64,000 bases of DNA, from positions 62,001 to 126,000 of the forward strand of contig NZ_JAALJI010000006.1 of NCBI RefSeq assembly GCF_011064595.1, given 5' to 3'. Under the pieces are notes generated by a model. It did no database searches. It saw nothing but the letters and a program-made list of their open reading frames with translations, and was not told the origin of the DNA. This document shows positions 1-60,695 of the stretch, piece after piece; within the stretch, counting starts at the first letter, position 1; the number at the start of each line of letters is the position of its first letter. The translations under genes and the position numbers were made by a program. This stretch comes from Paludisphaera soli (GTDB lineage Bacteria; Planctomycetota; Planctomycetia; Isosphaerales; Isosphaeraceae).

Positions 1-534
1 TCGTTCATGGCCCTGGGCGAGCTGGTCCGGTTCGACCGCAAGTCGCAGGACGTCACGGCCGAGTTCTACGACGTGGAGGCCCGGATCAAGAACAAGCAGG
101 TCCAGGAGCAGACGCTCCAGAAGATCCTGGAGGAGCGATCCGGGCAGCTTGAGGAGGTGTTGAAGGTCGAGGTCGAGCTGTCGCGCGTCCGGGGCGAGAT
201 CGAGCAGATGCAAGGTCGCATCCGGGTGCTCCGGAACCTCTCGTCGCTCGCCACCCTCACGTTGACGATCACCGAGCGCGACCGCTTCCAGCCCCCCGCG
301 CCGGTCGTGGCCGACTTCCCCACGCAGGTCGCGCGGACCTGGCAGGCGTCGCTGACGAGGCTGACCGACCTGGGCAAGGCCGCGATCCTGTTCGTCGTCG
401 GCCAGGCGGTCTGGACGCCGTTCTGGGCGGTCGGCCTCCTGCTCGGCTGGCTCGGCCTGCGTCGGCTGATCGCGGCGACGAGGTCGCCCGCCCCGGCGGC
501 ACCGCCGGCGAGCCCGACCCCCTCCGGCGGCTGA
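1..534 (+). CDS. DUF4349 domain protein, 5' end outside window
   Basis: The frame is open from the first base, so the start lies upstream of the window; the first ATG inside it (position 7) is internal. The visible 177 residues carry the DUF4349 pattern: a V.A.Y.D.EAR.K.. segment, a long charged coiled coil (about residues 20-75) with ELSRVRGEIEQMQGRI, then a short beta-strand ending in LTLTITER. A hydrophobic segment around residues 125-155 is a probable membrane anchor, followed by an Ala/Pro-rich tail. Proteins of this family are usually membrane-anchored lipoproteins or signal-peptide proteins of unknown function. Family assignment is from pattern memory; the signal peptide that would normally be present is not in the window. 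Confidence 0.72.
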   Translation, partial: SFMALGELVRFDRKSQDVTAEFYDVEARIKNKQVQEQTLQKILEERSGQLEEVLKVEVELSRVRGEIEQMQGRIRVLRNLSSLATLTLTITERDRFQPPAPVVADFPTQVARTWQASLTRLTDLGKAAILFVVGQAVWTPFWAVGLLLGWLGLRRLIAATRSPAPAAPPASPTPSGG

Positions 535-540
535 AGGGGC

Positions 541-630
541 TCAGAAGTAGACCTGGAACTGCATCCAGAAGAGGTCGGACGTGGACTGGTGGAGCCCCTC
601 GTGGGTGCTATAGAGCGCGGGCCGGGAGGG
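541..630 (-). pseudogene. C-terminal remnant of a probable outer-membrane beta-barrel protein
   Basis: On the minus strand the last codons before a TGA at 541-543 read LYSTHEGLHQSTSDLFW, then alternating polar and aromatic residues ending in a terminal Phe. A C-terminal beta-strand with final Phe is the classical outer-membrane barrel signature. The same frame meets a stop at 652-654 and no start or SD is visible, so this is a leftover 3' end and not a gene. What barrel protein it came from cannot be told. Confidence 0.35.
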
Positions 631-904
631 ATCTGCTGCGTCGGGCGAGCATCAGGCCGGATCGCCGGCCCGACGAGCAGGTCCGGGAGTCGCTCCGCCG
701 TCCCGAAGTCGCCCCGATCGTCGAAGCCGAGTTCCGGCGGCGGCCGTCCTGGCCGGTGACGAACGACGGCTTCCGCCGGATCGAGGCCGCACGAAAGGCG
801 TCCGAGGCGCAGGAGAAGGCCCGCAAGCATGCCAGGCGGCCCCATTCCAGGGACCGGGCGTGTGGGTTCGCGTCGGCAAGCCGCCGCGCTTCCGCCCTCG
901 TTGG
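631..904. other. non-coding stretch, no confident gene
   Basis: Overlapping frames are open on both strands. A plus-strand reading around 630-830 (PEVAPIVEAEFRRRPSW and following) has some protein-like character but no start codon, SD or recognisable domain, so it is left unannotated. It may be decayed coding DNA like the barrel remnant next to it. Confidence 0.3.
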
Positions 905-1837
905 TCAGACCGATTCGGCACCATCGGGGCCCGCGCGACGAGCCCGGCCGCGGCCGAGCATGGCGACCCCGCCGATCGCCAGCATGACGACGGCCGAAGG
1001 CTCCGGAACGGCCGCGACCCTGAACCCGGAGTCGAAGGTGACCGCGTTTGCAACCGAACTGCCGTCGGCGAGGGTCACGTCGGTCAGGCGAAACGTGCTC
1101 CCGAAATCGGCGATCGCGTCCGCGTCGAAGGAGGCCCGAGTGAAAGTGGAGAAGAGCAAGTTCATGGAGTAACCGCCCAGCAGCGGCGCGTATGGCAGCT
1201 GGAAGTCGGCCATGAAGCTGACCGCCCCGCCTCCAGGGTCGTACGAGAAGCCGCGGGCGTTGATGACATTGAATGCGCTGTTGCCGGGCCCCTTGGCGTA
1301 GTAGTAGGTCGTAAACCCATGCATGCCCGGCGTCGAGGCGATGAGCTCGGGCGTCAGGCTCGTCGACGAGACCAAGCCTTCCTGGAAGCCGCCGAAGGAC
1401 GAGACGAAGACGTCCGCTTCAAACTTCGAGAAATCGGACCGGAGATCGTATCAATAAATCCCCGTCACCTCGAGGGTCACGTATATCGAGTCGGGAATCG
1501 GGTGGCCGTCATTCAGCCTGATGACGTCTCGCCATTGGGCGACGGCGGCCTGGGCGGTGCTCAACGCGAGGTCCGTCCGCCCCGATACCGACAGCCGGAC
1601 GCCGGGGTCGGCGAGCAGCGAAATGGACGCCGATGCTGCCGACCCCGCCGCCGAACCTGCGGCGGCGCTTTCGTTCCAGTAATCCCCGTAGCGGTCGACT
1701 TCGTCGGCTCCCTGAACGCCGGAAAGCCCCTGCACACCGACCACCGTATAGACTTCGGCGGCCATCGCACCCGTGAGCGAGGCGATCGTCAAACTCATGA
1801 CCAACGAGCATGTCGAGGCGAGATAACTCATTCGCAT
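905..1837 (-). pseudogene. PEP-CTERM exosorted protein interrupted by an in-frame TGA
   Basis: Starting at the ATG at 1837 (AAGGAA about 10 bases upstream) the product has a signal peptide ending in TGAMAAEV and runs to a TGA at 1453-1451. The very same frame then continues without another stop for about 180 codons to position 905. The downstream part ends in VPEPSAVVMLAIGGVAML followed by an Arg-rich tail: the PEP motif, hydrophobic helix and basic tail of an exosortase substrate. The signal peptide and sorting signal are thus on the two sides of one stop codon, so this is one gene with a nonsense codon (or a base error), about 310 codons in all. The mature part has no recognised domain. If translated only to the stop, the product would be secreted but could not be sorted. 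Confidence 0.72.
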
Positions 1838-1907
1838 GTTCAGTATTTCCTTGCAAAATGGCGAGATCGTATCGAACGCCCGTCGCGAATCGACCTCAGG
1901 GGCCGAT

Positions 1908-1968
1908 CTTACCTGGTGTTTTCTTTTGATTTAATATCTATATAGTTTTTTTCGTTCCAAAACAGTAT
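1908..1968 (-). promoter_or_regulatory. AT-rich promoter island upstream of the PEP-CTERM gene
   Basis: About 60 bases of very AT-rich DNA stand out in the GC-rich background, 70-130 bases upstream of the minus-strand start at 1837. Reading the minus strand, TTGGAA is followed 16 bases later by GATATT, a possible -35/-10 pair. The exact promoter is inference; the base-composition change is directly visible. Confidence 0.35.
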
Positions 1969-2352
1969 GCGTTCGACGGGCTCGGTGTAGCCGATCGGGC
2001 CGATTCGAAGCCACGTCCTCGGGCTGCGGATCGAAGCGTCCGTCCCTCTCCACCCAGTTTGAGGCGAACGAGGCCAATCGGACCCCCAACTCACCGTCCG
2101 GCCAAGTCCCGGGTCCCAGGGCCCGGCCTTCCAGGCGGACGAGATCCGACCCATCGGACCGAATCCCCGGATGCCGTGGGGCGAACGAGATGGTCCAAAG
2201 ACCGGGGTCGGCCGGTCCCGACGTGGAGACTCGACCGCCCGGTTCCGGCGGCGAGCGAGCCGATTCTCCGAAGGGCTTGGGCGTCGGGCTGAAGCCTGGC
2301 CATAATCGATCCCGGACGATTCGCCCAGCCCCGGCATCCCGAGAGGCCCCCC
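1969..2352. other. intergenic region, nothing recognised
   Basis: This GC-rich stretch lies between the divergent PEP-CTERM pseudogene and the PLP enzyme. Long frames open here on the minus strand are shadows of the codon bias of the plus-strand gene downstream. No RNA gene, repeat or clear promoter was recognised. Confidence 0.4.
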
Positions 2353-3315
2353 GTGAACACCGTCGCCCGGCTCCCCGACTGCAACCATTACCTCGACCGA
2401 GGGACGGCCACGCCGCTGATCCCCGTCCGGCTCGACGCGGACGGGCCGACGATCTGGTGCAAGCTGGAGTTCCTCAACCCCAGCGGCTCGACCAAGGACC
2501 GGATCGCCGGCTACATCCTGCACAAGGCCGTGCGGACCGGGAGGGTCGCGCCCGGGGGGCTGGTGGTCGAGGCGTCGAGCGGGTCGACGAGCATCGCCAT
2601 GGCCCTGGCCTCGGCGCAGCTGGGGCTGAAGTTCCTCGCGGTGATGCCCGAGGGGGTCAGCAGCGAGCGGCGGATGATGATCGAGGCCTACGGCGGCGAG
2701 GTCCGGTTCTCGCCCCGGGCCGAGGGGATCCTGGGCGCCCTGGCGGGGGCGGCGGCCGTCGCGGCCGAGCGCGGGGCGTTCCTGCCGCTCCAGTTCGAGA
2801 ACCCGGACAACCCGGCGGCGCACCGAGGCCGGACGGCCCAGGAGGTCCTGGCGCAGATCCCCGGCGGCTGCGTCGACGCCGTGGTCAGCGGGGTCGGCAC
2901 CGGGGGGACGCTCGTCGGCCTGTTCGAGGGCCTGTGCGACCACGGCTGCTCGCCGACCGCGTTCGCCGCCAGGCCCGTGACCGGCGCGGCGGTGGGGGGC
3001 GCGGGGGCGGAGTGCTGCTCGTTCAGCGGCCGGATCCCCGGCGTGGTGGACGGGCCCTCCACCATCTACACGAGGTTCCGCGCCGAGCGGGGGGCGTCGC
3101 TCGTCGAGATCGACGTGCGCGACGACGAGGCCGTGGACCTCGCCCGCCGGCTGATCCGCAAGGGCTTCCCGGTCGGCCCCAGCTCGGGCCTGAACTTCCG
3201 GGCCGCGATGGCGGCCGCGGAGCGCCTCGGCCCCGAGGCCCGGATCGTCACGGTCTTCCCCGACCGGATGGAACGCTACTTCTCGACCGAGCTGTTCGCC
3301 CGCGCGATCGGCTGA
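2353..3315 (+). CDS. PLP-dependent cysteine synthase family protein
   Basis: A 320-residue fold-type II PLP enzyme, the usual length for CysK/CysM/SbnA-like proteins. The PLP lysine motif NPSGSTKDRIA is near residue 43, an SSGSTSIA substrate loop near residue 75 (CysK has SGNTGIA), and the phosphate-binding GVGTGGT loop near 180. PSSGLNF near 277 is the pyridine-nitrogen region. The family replaces the beta substituent of O-acetyl- or O-phosphoserine, usually with sulfide, in the cytoplasm. The altered substrate loop means the true acceptor could be other than sulfide. It starts at the ATG at 2353 and stands alone, with a stem-loop just after the stop. Confidence 0.85.
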   Translation: MNTVARLPDCNHYLDRGTATPLIPVRLDADGPTIWCKLEFLNPSGSTKDRIAGYILHKAVRTGRVAPGGLVVEASSGSTSIAMALASAQLGLKFLAVMPEGVSSERRMMIEAYGGEVRFSPRAEGILGALAGAAAVAAERGAFLPLQFENPDNPAAHRGRTAQEVLAQIPGGCVDAVVSGVGTGGTLVGLFEGLCDHGCSPTAFAARPVTGAAVGGAGAECCSFSGRIPGVVDGPSTIYTRFRAERGASLVEIDVRDDEAVDLARRLIRKGFPVGPSSGLNFRAAMAAAERLGPEARIVTVFPDRMERYFSTELFARAIG

Positions 3316-3338
3316 GCCGGCATCGGCGCGGGGAGAGG

Positions 3339-3359
3339 CTTCCCTCCTTGTGAGGGAAG
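3339..3359 (+). terminator. stem-loop after the PLP enzyme gene
   Basis: CTTCCCTC and GAGGGAAG pair perfectly (8 bp) around a CTTGT loop, 23 bases after the stop of the cysteine-synthase-like gene. There is no T-run, so this is either a weak terminator or a minor relative of the CCTTCCC-type repeats seen elsewhere in the window. Confidence 0.4.
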
Positions 3360-3453
3360 ACGACCGAGGCTTCGACGCGGGTAAGGTGCCAACCTGTTGA
3401 GAACCCCCGTCTCGTCCCCGAACCGCTTCCCCCACAAGGAAGGAAACGAAGAA

Positions 3454-3500
3454 AGGGCCGGGGACGCGCCGCGAATCTCGTCGGCGCACCCTCCGGCCCT
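3454..3500. terminator. imperfect stem-loop between convergent genes
   Basis: AGGGCCGG (3454-3461) pairs with CCGGCCCT (3493-3500), with an inner GCGCCG/CGGCGC pairing. It lies between the converging PLP-enzyme and DUF1328 genes and could terminate both directions. Confidence 0.4.
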
Positions 3501-55148: not shown

Positions 55149-55162
55149 AAGAGGTGCTCATC

Positions 55163-58100
55163 TCAGCGTCCCGTGAAGCCCTTGCGCTCGGCGGGGTTGG
55201 TCGGCGGCCGGAACGGCTTGGTCCGCTTGGGGGCCTCCTTGGGGATCATCTGCGAGGGCTTGATCACGCCGGGACGCGTGCCGGTGCGGGTGTCGATGAG
55301 CTGGAAGGAGCGCGGGTCGGTGACCTGCACGGAGCCTTCCTTGGGGTTGAACTGGACGGACGAGGCCCGGCCCGGCGAGGCCGACTGGCCGACCCCCGCC
55401 TGCTGGACGACCTGCACCGGGCGGCCTTCGAGGCCGTTGGCGTAGACCAGGTCGTTGAGCGAGTCGTAGGTGATCACGTCGGCCTGGAGCGCGGTGTCGC
55501 GGGCGCGGACGTAGGCGTTGTCCCACGCCTTGAGGAAGTTCCGCCCGCCCGAGGTCCTCGCGGCGCCCGGCGGCGGGGGCTCGTTGATCACGCGGAGCAT
55601 CTCCGAGGTCAGGAACGCGGCGTCGGCGGGGAGCCGGTCGTAGTCGAACCGGACCGCCTCGTTGGCGACGTTGCCCCGGGCCGTCTCCACGGCCCCGAAG
55701 AACTCCGCCCAACGCTGCTCGTCCACGTCGTCGCCCACGCCCGAGCCGAACCGCCCGCGCATGTCGCGGACGAACTTGATCTGCGTGAGGACGAGCGGCG
55801 GGAACGCGGGCCTGGCCCCGGGCGCGGCGCCGGCGGCCCCGGCCCGGCGGGGGGCGTCGGGGGTGGCGGCGATCTGGTCGCGGGCGTCGGGCCCGTCCTC
55901 GCCGGGGCGGAACGCGGTGGGCCGGACGGCGACGGCGGCGGCGTCGAACGCGGGGGGCGACTCCTTGGTCGGGTCGGCCTTGCGGTCGTAGAGGAAGACC
56001 TCGCCGGGGCCGGGGGCGCGGAACGTCCCGGTGCGGCGGTCGTAGAGCAGCGAGCCGGCCTCCATCCGCTGCTGGCTGATCAGCACGGGGTGGTCCGGGT
56101 GGACCTTCCGGGTGATCGCCACGGCCCGCGACTTCGGCGTGCCGACGACCTCGATCATCGCCAGGTCGGCCTTCGGCTCGGGCTCCTCGCCGGCGCCGGC
56201 CTCGGCGTCGGCCGGGGCCTTGGGCTTGGACCGGCCGCTGAGCTTGCCGGCGTCGACCAGCGGGATCGGCCGGTCGGTGTAGATGGTGATGGAGTCCTCG
56301 CCGTGGAGGAGCGAGTCCTCCATCTGGGCGTGGGCCCGGCCCAGGAACTTGATCTTGGCGGCGGGCCGCTTGAGCGGATCCTGCGAGATCCCCTCGAAGG
56401 TCATCAGCTTGGTCCAGGTCAGGACGATCGGCACCTTGGTCGACAGGACCTTGCCCCCGCGCTTGCGGACCTTCGGGGCCTCGCCGTCGGCCTTCGCCTT
56501 CGCCTCGGCCTCGGCGGCGGCCGCGTCAAGCCCCTCGGCGTTGCGGTCGGTGAACAAGGAGCGGTCGGTGAGCTGGGTGAGCTTGCCTTCGCCGTAGGCC
56601 CAGGCCTGGTCGGCCTTCTGGTCGACGCCGATGGTGTCGGCCTCGATGGTCATCTCCTCGGTGGAGACGCGGGCCTTGGGGGCCTTCTTGGGGTCGATCG
56701 CGCGGCCCCTGGCGGAGTGCTGGTCGTGGTGGTAGAGGTCGAAGACGACCTGGCCCTTGGCCTCGTTGCGGAGGACGAGGACCTCGCCCGTGGCGTCGGT
56801 GCCGACGGTCTTCCCCTCGCCGGGCTCCTGGTGGAGCTGCACGCTCCCCCGCAGCTCGACGTCGCGAAGCTCGTAGGCCGGCTCGTTCGAGGCCGCGGCC
56901 ACGGCCTGGGCGGGGGCTCCGGCGGCGGCGGGCGGCCGGGGGCCGACGATCACCACGGCCTGGGCTCGCTCGGCCCGGGCGGTCATTTTGGGGCCGTTCG
57001 GCTTCGGCCCGGCGGCGGCGCCCTGCGCGGGGACCGGCGTGAGGTCGGGCGCGTCCTCGGCGTTGACGGTCGGCGCCGGCGCGGGGGCGGCGGGCTTCGC
57101 CGCCGGGGCCGGGGTCGGCGGGGGCGAGGCGGCCACGGTCCCGGCTTCGAAGTCCACGTCGAGCCGGTCGCGGAGGCGGAGGTCCCGCGTCGCGTCGACG
57201 AGGTGGACGTCCTTCACGGCGAGCAGCCGGCGGATGCTGGGGAGGGCCTGGGCCTTCGGCGGGGCGGCCGGGTCGGGCTCGACGAACGAGGCGGGGACGA
57301 CCTCGCGGCCGTCCTGCGTGAGAGTCTTCTTCTCGTCCGGGTTGAGCCAGACGACGATGCGGTCGGCGGACTCCAGCGAGGCGTTCTGGGCGCGGTCCTC
57401 GACTTTCGGCGAGCCCTTGAGCACCAGCACCCGGCCGGGGACGCGGCCCTCCTCGACGGCCTCGTTCTGGACCCAGAGCTGCTCGCGCCAGGCGGCCGTG
57501 CGGGCCGGCGGAACGTCGCGCGGGGGGTCGTTCGCGCCCAGGGCGGGCCGGCTCTCCAGCAGGCCCGGGCCGTTGGCGACGAGCGCCGCGTGGTCGGGGT
57601 CGCCGTCGTCGGTGAGGGTGGCGTCGGAGCACCAGACGTGGGTGACCGACTGGAGCTTGCCCGGGCCGGCTCCGGGGGCGGCGGCGGCCAGGTCGCGCTT
57701 CTCCAGCCAGAGCTTCTTGGGCCCGCCGCCGTTGAACACGGTGGTGTTCTTGCCCGAGGCGGGCTCCTTGTAGTGGAGCAGCTCGACGCAGAGGATCTTG
57801 ACCCCCTGGGCCGGCATCTGGAGCCAGACGGCGTGGCCGCTGGCCTTCACCCGGCGCAGGGTCAGGCCGCCGAACGCGTCGCCCTTCTCCTTGTCGTCCT
57901 TCGCCTCGGCCTCGACGGCCGCCGGCTTCTTCTCGCCGGGGAGGAGCGTGAGGTGGAGGGTGTCGCAGGTGAGCTGGTCGGGAAGCTCGCCAAGCTTGCC
58001 GCGGCGGACGACGACGTTGTTGCGGAACTCGACGTAGGTCGGGTCGGACGGCTGGGGGGGGCCGACCGGCGGGGCCGGCGGCGTGTGCGGCAGCGCCACG

Positions 58101-58987
58101 ACGAGCGGCCCGTCGCACTGGACGTCGAGCGGGATCGGCTCGGCCGGGGCCGCGACCGGCTTGGCGGCGCCGGCGGCCCCCTTGGCCTCCAGGTCGGGGA
58201 GCATCCCGGTGCGGCCGACGTCGAGGAACGTGGTGCGGACGTGCTTGTGGAGCGTGAGCTGCTGCGCGCCGTCGAACCCGGAGGCCCGGCCGCCGGGGGC
58301 GTTGGGGTCGAGCTTGGGGCGGAGCTGGATCTCCAGGCCGGTCCCGGTGACGCGGAGGTTGCGGTCGACCACGACGACGTCGGAGTTGGTGCGGATCAGG
58401 GGGGCGATCCCGTCGTCGATGTACTCGACGTCGGTGAGCGGGCCGATGATCAGGTCGTCCTTGGGGTCGTCGGGCGTGCCCCGGTCGTCCTTGATCATGA
58501 CGTCCCGCTCCAGGCGGGCGTATCGGACGCTCGGCGAGGACTCGCCGGGCTTGAGGGTCAGGCCGAACGCCTTGTCGAAGTCGATCGTCGCCGACTCGCT
58601 GGTCAAGGTCTTGGTGCCCCCCCCCTTCTTGGGGGAGCCGAGCACGAGGGCCGCCGGCTTCACCTCGATCCGCTTGCCGTCGAACTTCACGCCGCCGCTC
58701 TCGATGGGGCGGGAGAACTCGGCCGCGAAGAGGATGATCCCCTTCTCCTGGCTGACGTAGCGGAGGAGGTCGTCGGAGTTGGTCCAGTGGTCCCGGCCGA
58801 ACACGCGCTCCGCGGTCTCCCGGACCAGCCGCTTGTTGTCGGAGTCGTGGGCGGCGAACTCCAGCGGGTCGACGTGCCGGGCCGCGCGGAGGCGGCCGAC
58901 GACGAGGTCGAACGTCCGCACGTACGCCAGGTGCGACGCCGTCAGCAGGCCCAGGACCGTCGCCAGCTTGAAGAGTTTCTTGAGCAC
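55163..58987 (-). CDS. giant LptC/LptA (OstA)-like envelope protein
   Basis: A 1,274-residue protein with one N-terminal hydrophobic helix (FKLATVLGLLTASHLAYV), an LptC-like topology with the bulk in the periplasm. LRVTGTGLEIQLRP near residue 212 resembles the LptC/OstA start, and several OstA-type strands follow: LESADRIVVWLNPDE near 545, TIEADTIGVDQKADQAWAYG near 790, LQADVITYDSLNDLVYANG near 1175. Two or more low-complexity Ala/Pro/Lys linkers interrupt it (for example AAKPAAPAPAPTVNAEDAP near 640). It follows kdsC by 113 bases in the order kdsD-kdsC-this, where Proteobacteria have kdsD-kdsC-lptC-lptA. The GTG at 58987 is preferred over TTG at 59008 because the signal helix then begins cleanly and GGAA is at usable spacing. 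A 1,283-aa frame on the opposite strand is a shadow. Confidence 0.72.
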   Translation of the reverse strand: MLKKLFKLATVLGLLTASHLAYVRTFDLVVGRLRAARHVDPLEFAAHDSDNKRLVRETAERVFGRDHWTNSDDLLRYVSQEKGIILFAAEFSRPIESGGVKFDGKRIEVKPAALVLGSPKKGGGTKTLTSESATIDFDKAFGLTLKPGESSPSVRYARLERDVMIKDDRGTPDDPKDDLIIGPLTDVEYIDDGIAPLIRTNSDVVVVDRNLRVTGTGLEIQLRPKLDPNAPGGRASGFDGAQQLTLHKHVRTTFLDVGRTGMLPDLEAKGAAGAAKPVAAPAEPIPLDVQCDGPLVVALPHTPPAPPVGPPQPSDPTYVEFRNNVVVRRGKLGELPDQLTCDTLHLTLLPGEKKPAAVEAEAKDDKEKGDAFGGLTLRRVKASGHAVWLQMPAQGVKILCVELLHYKEPASGKNTTVFNGGGPKKLWLEKRDLAAAAPGAGPGKLQSVTHVWCSDATLTDDGDPDHAALVANGPGLLESRPALGANDPPRDVPPARTAAWREQLWVQNEAVEEGRVPGRVLVLKGSPKVEDRAQNASLESADRIVVWLNPDEKKTLTQDGREVVPASFVEPDPAAPPKAQALPSIRRLLAVKDVHLVDATRDLRLRDRLDVDFEAGTVAASPPPTPAPAAKPAAPAPAPTVNAEDAPDLTPVPAQGAAAGPKPNGPKMTARAERAQAVVIVGPRPPAAAGAPAQAVAAASNEPAYELRDVELRGSVQLHQEPGEGKTVGTDATGEVLVLRNEAKGQVVFDLYHHDQHSARGRAIDPKKAPKARVSTEEMTIEADTIGVDQKADQAWAYGEGKLTQLTDRSLFTDRNAEGLDAAAAEAEAKAKADGEAPKVRKRGGKVLSTKVPIVLTWTKLMTFEGISQDPLKRPAAKIKFLGRAHAQMEDSLLHGEDSITIYTDRPIPLVDAGKLSGRSKPKAPADAEAGAGEEPEPKADLAMIEVVGTPKSRAVAITRKVHPDHPVLISQQRMEAGSLLYDRRTGTFRAPGPGEVFLYDRKADPTKESPPAFDAAAVAVRPTAFRPGEDGPDARDQIAATPDAPRRAGAAGAAPGARPAFPPLVLTQIKFVRDMRGRFGSGVGDDVDEQRWAEFFGAVETARGNVANEAVRFDYDRLPADAAFLTSEMLRVINEPPPPGAARTSGGRNFLKAWDNAYVRARDTALQADVITYDSLNDLVYANGLEGRPVQVVQQAGVGQSASPGRASSVQFNPKEGSVQVTDPRSFQLIDTRTGTRPGVIKPSQMIPKEAPKRTKPFRPPTNPAERKGFTGR

Positions 58988-59100
58988 GTGTTCGACATTC
59001 CGTAACAACGTCGGCGGTTACCCGGTTCACGCGGTGGGCCGCCTCGGACGCGTCGGGGGGACCATCCCCGGGCGGCCTGGGCGACCCCGCCCCAGCCTGC

Positions 59101-59676
59101 TCACGTCGCCGGCGCGAGGTAGCAGCCGCAAGCGCCGTGCCACAGCCCCTGGGCCTTCAAGACGACCTCGACGACTTCGCGGATCACGCCGTTCCCGCCG
59201 GCCGCGAGGGTCGTGAGGTGGGCCGCCTCGCGGACCTCCTCCACGGCGTCGGCCGGGCACGCGGCGAGCCCGACGGCCCGCAGCACCGGCAGGTCGATCA
59301 GGTCGTCGCCGACGTAGCAGACCTGCTCCGCCGTCGCCCCCGTCTCCTCCAGGAGCGCCCGGAAGGCCGCCGCCTTGTCGTCCAGGCCCTGGACCACCCG
59401 CTGGATCTTCAGCTCCGCCGCCCGCCGCTCGACGACCTTCGCGCGGCGGCCCGAGAGGATGGCCGACCCCTTGCCCACCTTGTGCCAGAGCGCGAAGCCC
59501 AGGCCGTCGCGGACGTGGAAGTTCTTCGACTCCACCCCCTCGTCGTCGACGATGATCCGGCCGTCGGTGAGGACGCCGTCGACGTCCACGGCCAGGATCC
59601 GGATCGCCGCGCATCGGGCTTCGAGGTCGGCCGCGGGGGCGGCCGTCGGGGGTCCCGGATCGGTCACGCGCGTCAC
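59101..59676 (-). CDS. kdsC: 3-deoxy-D-manno-octulosonate 8-phosphate phosphatase
   Basis: A 191-residue HAD-superfamily C0 phosphatase. LAVDVDGVLTDGRI near residue 28 is the DxDG active site with nucleophile Asp. DGLGFALWHKVG is the next segment, SGRRAKVVERRA near 70 is motif II, and YVGDDLIDLPVL near 122 is motif IV. It removes the phosphate from KDO-8-phosphate to give KDO for lipopolysaccharide. It overlaps the kdsD stop by four bases (GTGA), so it is translationally coupled. The N-terminal 24 residues are an extra disordered arm. The length without it is that of a normal KdsC. Confidence 0.92.
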   Translation of the reverse strand: MTRVTDPGPPTAAPAADLEARCAAIRILAVDVDGVLTDGRIIVDDEGVESKNFHVRDGLGFALWHKVGKGSAILSGRRAKVVERRAAELKIQRVVQGLDDKAAAFRALLEETGATAEQVCYVGDDLIDLPVLRAVGLAACPADAVEEVREAAHLTTLAAGGNGVIREVVEVVLKAQGLWHGACGCYLAPAT

Positions 59677-60695
59677 TCCTCGAAGTCCTCGGGGGGCGTC
59701 CCGATCAGGTCGGTCACGTCGATCAGGCCGGCCAGCCGGCCGCCCTCGTCGACCACGGGGAGTTCGCTGATCTTGCGGCCCTTCATCAGCTCGACCGCCT
59801 CGCCCAGCATGGCGCCGACGGTCGTGCGGAAGGGGTCGGCGGTCATCACCTCGGCGATCGGCCGGTCCAGCTCGGACTCGCGCCGCTTCTCGAAGAGGCG
59901 GGCGAGGTCGCTGTCGGTGAAGATGCCCAGCAGCTTGTTCTGGTGATCCTGGACGAGCACCGCGCCCGAGCGCCGCCGGGGGCCGGCGAGCCGCACGAAC
60001 ACCTGGCGGACCGTCTCCTCGGGGCGGGCCGTGCGGACGTCGCGGCCGGTCCGCATCACGTCCTCGACGCGCGTCAGCCTCCGCCCGAGGTTCCCCGCCG
60101 GGTGGTAGAGCGCGAAGTCCTCCGGGGTGAACTCACGCATCCGCGAGACGAGGAGCGCGAGGGCGTCGCCCACGGCCATCATCGCCGTCGTGCTGGCCGA
60201 GGGGGCCAGTCCGAGCGGACAGGCCTCGGCGATCGTCCCCATCGCGATGCAGACGTCGGCCGAACGCCCTAGCGAACTCGCCGCGCGTTCGGTGACGGCG
60301 ATCAGGCGGGCGCCGATCCGGCGGATCGACGGGAGGATCCGCAGGACCTCCTCGGTCTCGCCGCTCTGCGAGAAGGCGACCACCACGTCGCCGTCGCGGA
60401 TCCGGCCCATGTCGCCGTGGACGGCCTCGGCGGGGTGCAGCGGGTAGGCCCGCGTGCCGGTCGAGGCGAGCGTGGCGGCGGTCTTCTGCCCCACCAGGCC
60501 CGCCTTGCCCATGCCGGTGACGATCACGCCCCCCTGGCACTGGTGGACCAGCCGGGCCGCCCGGACGATGGAGCCGTCGAGCCGGTCGCGCACCGCGTTG
60601 AGGGCGGCGGCCTCGTCCCGGAGGACGCGTCGGGCGAACGCCAGGGCCTCGGCCTCCGTCTCCGGGGCCGTCGTCGCTTCCGAGATCGTCGCCAT
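59673..60695 (-). CDS. kdsD: arabinose-5-phosphate isomerase
   Basis: A 340-residue KdsD/KpsF protein. The SIS domain (about residues 45-180) has GVIVTGMGKAGLVGQKTAAT and AFSQSGETEEVLRIL with the phosphosugar-binding Ser/Thr. HPAEAVHGDMGRI holds the catalytic His. Two CBS domains follow (MRTGRDVRTARPEETV and MTADPFRTTVGAMLGEAVEL). It isomerises D-ribulose-5-phosphate to D-arabinose-5-phosphate, the first KDO precursor. The ATG at 60695 follows GGAGG-type sequence. It is the first gene of the operon with kdsC and the giant envelope gene, and is divergent from the ATP-grasp gene. Confidence 0.93.
   Translation of the reverse strand: MATISEATTAPETEAEALAFARRVLRDEAAALNAVRDRLDGSIVRAARLVHQCQGGVIVTGMGKAGLVGQKTAATLASTGTRAYPLHPAEAVHGDMGRIRDGDVVVAFSQSGETEEVLRILPSIRRIGARLIAVTERAASSLGRSADVCIAMGTIAEACPLGLAPSASTTAMMAVGDALALLVSRMREFTPEDFALYHPAGNLGRRLTRVEDVMRTGRDVRTARPEETVRQVFVRLAGPRRRSGAVLVQDHQNKLLGIFTDSDLARLFEKRRESELDRPIAEVMTADPFRTTVGAMLGEAVELMKGRKISELPVVDEGGRLAGLIDVTDLIGTPPEDFEE

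Follow-up and report, generated by a model that had tools for sequence, protein, structure and literature searches.

A single gene of Paludisphaera soli, at 55163-58987 on the minus strand of the window (the whole 64,000-nucleotide stretch analyzed, from contig NZ_JAALJI010000006.1), encodes a giant protein of 1,274 amino acids (aa) that is very probably a covalent, single-chain bridge of the form LptC-(LptA)n, with some six jellyroll segments, and the periplasmic part of the lipopolysaccharide transport (Lpt) machine. The evidence consists of the place of the gene after the Kdo (3-deoxy-D-manno-octulosonate) genes kdsD and kdsC, the resemblance of several parts of the predicted models to Lpt jellyrolls, homology followed stepwise through sequence profiles, and the presence of other Lpt parts in the same genome. 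An earlier note, made from the sequence alone, had read the protein as a fused or expanded LptC/LptA; segment matches and profile links now support that reading.

In Escherichia coli, lipid A is shielded by successive jellyrolls contributed by LptC, LptA, and the LptD N-terminal domain, arranged in a row (PMC7347655). The E. coli gene order is kdsD-kdsC-lptC-lptA-lptB, and the giant shares with this system its position after kdsD-kdsC, a predicted LptC-like N-terminal hydrophobic helix, and the Lpt jellyroll fold; it differs in that one chain with about six segments and long linkers takes the place of LptC and LptA (genes of 576 and 558 bp), and in that lptB of P. soli is located elsewhere in the genome. 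As the earlier note stated, kdsD (arabinose-5-phosphate isomerase, with SIS and CBS domains; 59673 to about 60695, minus strand; TIGR00393, 260.6 bits, cut-off 203.7) and kdsC (Kdo-8-phosphate phosphatase; 59101-59676, minus strand; TIGR01670, 148.5 bits, cut-off 106.95) share four bases, read from the sequence as 59673-59676. The giant open reading frame (ORF) begins 113 bases downstream of kdsC on the same strand, with a GTG start at 58987. Its first 30 residues (58898-58987, minus strand) hold a hydrophobic stretch that is conserved in the family (best 18-residue Kyte-Doolittle means of about 1.2-2.1) and, by hydropathy, probably forms a helix that anchors the protein in the membrane, in keeping with the single N-terminal helix of the earlier note.

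AlphaFold models were built from 17 sequences. The model of residues 41-1240 (mean predicted local distance difference test score, pLDDT, 69.8; predicted template modeling score, pTM, 0.46) is mostly beta strand, in agreement with the strands that the earlier note had described, and contains 65 strands of at least three residues, and a second model covers residues 255-1020 (mean pLDDT 70.3, pTM 0.65). Low-confidence stretches near residues 613-667, 809-850, and 1003-1064 are rich in Ala, Pro, and Lys, the composition of the linkers that had been noticed in the sequence. The strands were divided by eye into six blocks, the number six being read rather than measured.

Comparison of the models with PDB structures (VIA-align and Foldseek) gave Lpt matches in several stretches of the chain; all segments lie on the minus strand. 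Segment 1 (residues 75-254; 58226-58765), in the LptC-like position, has strands in the model and overlaps the match of residues 126-409 to the LptD N-terminal domain 9ia0 (Z 10.3, root-mean-square deviation [rmsd] 3.5, 161 aligned). Segment 2 (residues 287-481; 57545-58129) is covered by the match of residues 286-611 to the LptD N-terminal jellyroll 7omm (Z 12.4, rmsd 3.5, 166 aligned), which ends in segment 3 (residues 496-612; 57152-57502), itself weakly similar to segment 5 (probability 29). Segment 4 (residues 668-808; 56564-56986) resembles residues 1081-1195 (probability 67) and takes part in the match of residues 727-960 to LptA 2r1a_G (Z 10.4, rmsd 3.1, 127 aligned). Segment 5 (residues 851-1002; 55982-56437) is matched by LptA 8gak (residues 809-1011; Z 12.2, rmsd 4.7, 114 aligned) and LptH 4uu4 (residues 808-1001; Z 10.9, rmsd 2.0), and segment 6 (residues 1065-1222; 55322-55795), which is LptA-like, by LptH 4uu4 (residues 1064-1233; Z 13.2, rmsd 2.3, 123 aligned) and LptA 2r1a_C (same residues; Z 13.1). 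The best unrelated VIA-align rows reach Z 7.7 and 7.4, and LptD rows attain a Foldseek probability of 1.00 with the model of residues 41-1240. On the predicted models the fold is thus an Lpt-type beta-jellyroll (Z 13.2, 12.4, and 12.2 for the best LptH, LptD, and LptA matches), and the OstA relationship that the earlier note had drawn from strand patterns gains support both here and from the profile comparisons below; the absence of a jellyroll or OstA match in every segment, which it had named as fatal to its reading, was not what was found. The giant has no counterpart of the LptD beta-barrel and carries the predicted N-terminal hydrophobic helix, and a separate LptD candidate exists.

Porins and BamA, also returned as structural matches, were rejected as generic beta similarity (Z < 8), as were the Foldseek matches to teneurins, LRP2, Rhs proteins, and DDB1 (probability at most 0.38). 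Eukaryotic bridge-like lipid transfer proteins, which would work in a similar way, form a very long beta groove between membranes; one of them, the LPD-3 complex (9cap_A), gave weak Foldseek matches (probability 0.57 and 0.41), for which homology is not claimed.

Sequence homology to the Lpt jellyroll superfamily (OstA/LptA/LptC/LptD-N) was reached in steps through three alignments: A1 (29 of the 35 Isosphaeraceae giants, omitting L032, which is split, L055, L060, L066, and L069, which are cut by contig ends, and L056), A7 (13 homologues from elsewhere in the class, outside Isosphaeraceae), and A6 (11 proteins of 641-793 aa from the slot after kdsD-kdsC). By hhalign, A1 aligns with A7 over 963 columns (probability 100, E 1.1e-84), A7 with A6 at probability 99.6 (E 5.8e-25), and A1 directly with A6 at probability 95.7 (E 9.5e-9). 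All ten slot proteins scanned with Pfam (L153, L156, L159, L160, L167, L178, L180, L181, L184, and L196) pass the LptD_N cut-off of 20.4, with 24.0-88.0 bits and up to four stretches each; in L167, L178, and L181 an LptC domain over the Pfam cut-off precedes the LptD_N part, and L167 and L178 pass both the LptA and the LptC cut-offs of NCBIfam. In a search of the full set of PDB sequences, the only chains that match the A1 profile below E 1 are two of LptA (best 0.053), and the nine that match the A7 profile are without exception LptA or LptH (best 4.7e-5). Individual models also detect some of the 29 aligned giants at E <= 1: TIGR03002 (LptA) 16 (best 2.8e-4), TIGR04409 (LptC) 11 (best 2.8e-4), PF03968 six (best 1.6e-4), and PF06835 four (best 0.0032). 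Within the giant, the LptC part of A6 aligns at residues 159-222 of segment 1 (probability 61.5; reversed control 0.7) and A6 OstA1 at residues 289-405 in segment 2 (85.3), 879-995 (53.6), and 1150-1234 (14.4), with reversed controls of at most 0.7; OstA1-3 of A6 fall within residues 852-995 of segment 5 (probability 54-77). These single-segment values are modest, and the case rests on fold and whole-length comparison.

A search of 59 genomes, that of P. soli included, matched the giant in 38: 35 of the 37 of the same family (G020 and G022 being the two in which it was not found) and three of the 22 from other families of the class. Its bearers include Singulisphaera acidiphila, Singulisphaera sp. 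GP187, Aquisphaera insulae, and one Isosphaeraceae metagenome-assembled genome. The expectation that the order kdsD-kdsC-giant would recur in other Isosphaeraceae was borne out: in all 34 loci of the family fetched by means of the giant, kdsD lies just upstream, although in two of them the contig ends within it, and kdsC lies between the two genes in 30. Complete, unsplit giants of the family are about 1,180-1,540 aa long, each with an N-terminal hydrophobic stretch.

The slot was also surveyed across the phylum. Of 118 genomes of at least 90% completeness, 112 gave a KdsD match, and 60 of these loci were sampled, one to three per family, favoring families and genomes not yet fetched (families f1, f5, f48, f63, f73, and f79 are among those outside the sample). 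kdsC follows kdsD in 30 of the 60, and in 29 of these pairs the next ORF is a homologue of the giant (547-1,604 aa; two-round profile), the exception being L232, with a slot ORF of 344 aa. The round-two alignment itself included 17 of these homologues, with round-one E below 1e-5; the other 12 lay outside it and score E 4.9e-34 to 4.9e-5 in round two, where the best reversed control is E 0.05, although in round one some of them do no better than reversed controls (L237, E 0.52, against a best reversed 0.26). One locus of the pair group (L216) and two of the other group (L214 and L215) were already members of A7. Where kdsC is not adjacent, a homologue is present in five of 30 loci, giving 34 in the sample (447-1,604 aa; 28 families by taxonomic labels). 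At E 0.001, Pfam finds LptC in ten of the 30 slot ORFs of this sample, LptD_N in eight, and ApbE in one. Seventeen loci were viewed for the gene after the slot, and the nine with a next ORF of at least 796 aa were scanned: six pass the Pfam LptD cut-off, two are below it, and one is unrelated. The order kdsD-(kdsC)-giant-lptD thus occurs in several planctomycete families, and the arrangement with a long homologue in the slot is spread over many families of the phylum rather than special to Isosphaeraceae.

Other parts of an Lpt system are encoded in the P. soli genome: LptB (328.7 bits, cut-off 240), not beside the giant, a LptF/LptG pair, and LpxC (283.6 bits). The genome context supplies Kdo gene neighbors, LptB, and LptF/LptG, with LptD as a candidate only. 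This candidate, a 1,244-aa protein, matches ORFs in L194, L207, and L225 by tblastn (E 1.3e-17 to 1.5e-15), and those ORFs pass the Pfam LptD cut-off; a published BLAST survey reports LptD in the planctomycete genomes it examined, including Singulisphaera acidiphila and Isosphaera pallida (PMC3422733).

In the working model, the N-terminal helix would be anchored in the inner membrane beside LptB2FG, as LptC is; the first jellyroll would dock with LptF/LptG and receive lipid A, some five further LptA-like jellyrolls would hand it onward along a groove that may be continuous, and the C-terminal LptA-like domain would deliver it to the N-terminal domain of LptD. With four or so additional jellyrolls the bridge would be much longer than that of E. 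coli, an estimate from segment number and not from measured coordinates, and its length may be related to the width of the periplasm. Lipopolysaccharide as the cargo is likewise a deduction, which leaves some room for an Lpt-type bridge that carries another amphipathic outer-membrane lipid in place of lipid A or lipopolysaccharide. We regard this as unlikely: the giant adjoins the Kdo genes kdsD and kdsC, lpxC is present in the genome, and lipid A has been reported from planctomycetes (cited in PMC5394234).

Several observations weigh against the single-chain LptC-(LptA)n bridge. Searched as a single protein, the giant passes the curated cut-off of no Pfam or NCBIfam family; its NCBIfam match to LptA TIGR03002, in the segment 6 part, is 15.4 bits against a cut-off of 71.7. 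It is accordingly no LptA equivalog (1,274 aa against a single-domain model of 142 positions), nor does it match the LptC models PF06835 and TIGR04409 over their cut-offs. A phmmer search of PDB sequences returned zero matches, its relatives were not found when it served as a single-sequence query in a scan of genome contigs, and at E 0.001 A1 by itself reaches no more than 16 of the 199 genomes of the phylum. Sorted by E-value, the two Foldseek outputs are headed by a teneurin (probability 0.35) and an Rhs protein (0.13), respectively. The lack of a curated family and of a phmmer match, with unrelated proteins at the top of Foldseek, is what would be expected of an unrelated repetitive beta protein that resembles OstA only through generic strand patterns; this explanation has been largely refuted by the profile steps and fold matches (reversed controls stay at probability <= 0.7 and E >= 0.05) and by the PDB sequence searches with A1 and A7, which yield only LptA/LptH chains, and we consider it very improbable.

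The models themselves are of middling confidence (mean pLDDT about 70; pTM 0.46 and 0.65) and include long disordered stretches, so the continuity of the bridge is putative. A flexible chain of Lpt jellyrolls, in which linkers break the groove and the protein acts as a shuttle string or a width-tolerant tether rather than a continuous slide, is a tentative possibility to which the three low-confidence stretches and the pTM of only 0.46 for residues 41-1240 lend weight. The middle part, however, folds with a pTM of 0.65, and the match of residues 727-960 crosses segment borders, as expected of a continuous sheet; the linkers may be surface loops.

The locus and the genome add further points on the same side. 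Half of the sampled kdsD loci have no adjacent kdsC, and in 25 of these 30 no homologue lies next to kdsD (only the locus was examined). The LptD candidate of P. soli has zero Pfam matches at E 0.1. In the whole genome, PF06835 (LptC) has no match at E <= 10, the giant included; TIGR03002 (LptA) gives two ORFs at E <= 10, neither significant, namely the 1,244-aa LptD candidate (15.6 bits, E 0.055), which contains an OstA stretch, and the giant (12.0 bits, E 0.75); and the giant is not among the matches of PF03968. Since the giant itself goes undetected, or almost so, with these models, their failure to reveal a separate LptC or LptA counts for little, and an equally diverged small LptA or LptC could escape them. 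If such a protein were encoded elsewhere, the giant might not be the bridge but an additional Lpt-like component, such as a scaffold or a regulator. Standard models lack the sensitivity here to rule on separate LptC or LptA, and sigma-factor fusions in Singulisphaera (described below) show that portions of the giant can serve in a different setting; nevertheless, the giant occupies the lptC-lptA place after kdsD-kdsC, and related proteins of 640-795 aa in the same place themselves carry LptC and LptA domains, which makes an accessory role improbable.

Among the closest known counterparts of the giant are planctomycete proteins with LptC plus several LptA domains (L167, L178, and relatives, 641-793 aa), with which it shares locus position and profile homology; the giant is about twice as long and, unlike L167 and L178, does not score over the curated cut-offs for LptC and LptA. 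In E. coli, LptA can form head-to-tail oligomers, likewise a row of LptA folds end to end (PMC6164715), made from separate copies whose cellular number is unclear (PMC7347655), whereas in the giant the gene dictates how many there are and in what order. Diderm Firmicutes have LptA- and LptC-like OstA proteins, also within an Lpt gene cluster, as two proteins of about 200 aa (PMC5007114) in contrast to the one long chain seen here. There is about an even chance, in our view, that in Planctomycetota the LptC-LptA oligomer has been replaced by one covalent bridge with a gene-encoded number of modules, which has grown within the phylum from LptC with a few LptA units (about 550-670 aa) to the roughly six segments (1,180-1,540 aa) of Isosphaeraceae and whose length may track the width of the periplasm of each lineage.

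The number of LptA units that reach across the periplasm of E. coli continues to be disputed (PMC7347655); according to a review, a single LptA in the complex is enough to span the typical E. coli distance of 100 Angstrom (PMC6164715). If the bridge is one chain throughout a phylum, the unit number is fixed by the gene, and a natural series of lengths can be set against periplasm width. The planctomycete periplasm can become greatly enlarged (PMC5394234), which fits a long bridge and proves nothing; the giant makes the passage of lipopolysaccharide across it a testable question. A profile-based survey of 85 genomes found planctomycete Lpt and Tol-Pal systems largely reduced (PMC8871954), and divergence of the single-chain proteins from standard models may partly explain the "reduced" verdict on Lpt reported there. 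The same survey gives lpt genes as clustered only in Proteobacteria among its 85 genomes (PMC8871954), in contrast to the grouping of kdsD, kdsC, the giant homologue, and lptD in several planctomycete families. Our search of the open-access literature returned no description of a single-chain Lpt fusion or expansion across a phylum; the Lpt bridge as such is already known, and the fusion into one chain and its phylum-wide expansion would be the new part.

Some features of the window locus depend on the choice of start or strand. A TTG at 59008 is an alternative start for the giant that would lengthen it by 7 aa. The kdsD frame stays open to 60815; for many distant relatives the alignment with the longer ORF begins only near residue 35-41, in line with a start at 60695. 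A 1,283-aa ORF opposite the giant (55154-59005, plus strand) was rejected as a by-product of GC-rich coding, since the guanine-plus-cytosine (GC) content at third codon positions is 0.983 in the giant and 0.726 in the opposite ORF, identifying the minus strand as coding; protein-level conservation in 35 of 37 Isosphaeraceae genomes points the same way.

The P. soli LptB (L278:2654-3634, minus strand) carries a C-terminal extension of about 86 residues past the LptB model, partly Pro-rich, and its neighbors look by eye like signal peptidases. The PF03968 profile matches 55 of 199 phylum genomes at E 0.01, hitting slot proteins and LptD-like ORFs alike. Loci L153-L212 were chosen by A1 or PF03968 profiles, a biased set used only for sizes and family labels; kdsD or kdsC adjoins the ORF in 36 of these 60. 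One of them, L184 (G076, 42-3467), has an order near that of E. coli, with kdsD, a gap, a 301-aa ORF with two OstA stretches, and lptB. Small OstA (PF03968) ORFs of about 170-210 aa occur in L177, L182, L193, L210, and similar loci, where the fetched stretch matches neither kdsD nor kdsC. Some planctomycete lineages may thus retain a separate LptA-like protein.

Among Isosphaeraceae loci, the giant directly follows kdsD in L045, L048, L057, and L059, without kdsC in between. In a genome of the same genus (G002, L032, 3970-7808, minus strand) the homologue lies in two frames, matching residues 1-318 and 317-1274, a split due to a frameshift or assembly error. Two Singulisphaera loci contain a second, partial copy of the N-terminal part of the giant (L064:4860-7271, minus strand, 804 aa; L065:5339-7054, plus strand, 572 aa), fused behind an extracytoplasmic function sigma factor (Sigma70_r2 and r4 over cut-off), with a hydrophobic stretch, judged by eye, separating the two parts. 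Such a protein could possibly be a sigma factor tethered to the membrane, with an Lpt-like domain that acts as a sensor in the periplasm; the fusion is contiguous in two of 45 family genomes among the matches listed.

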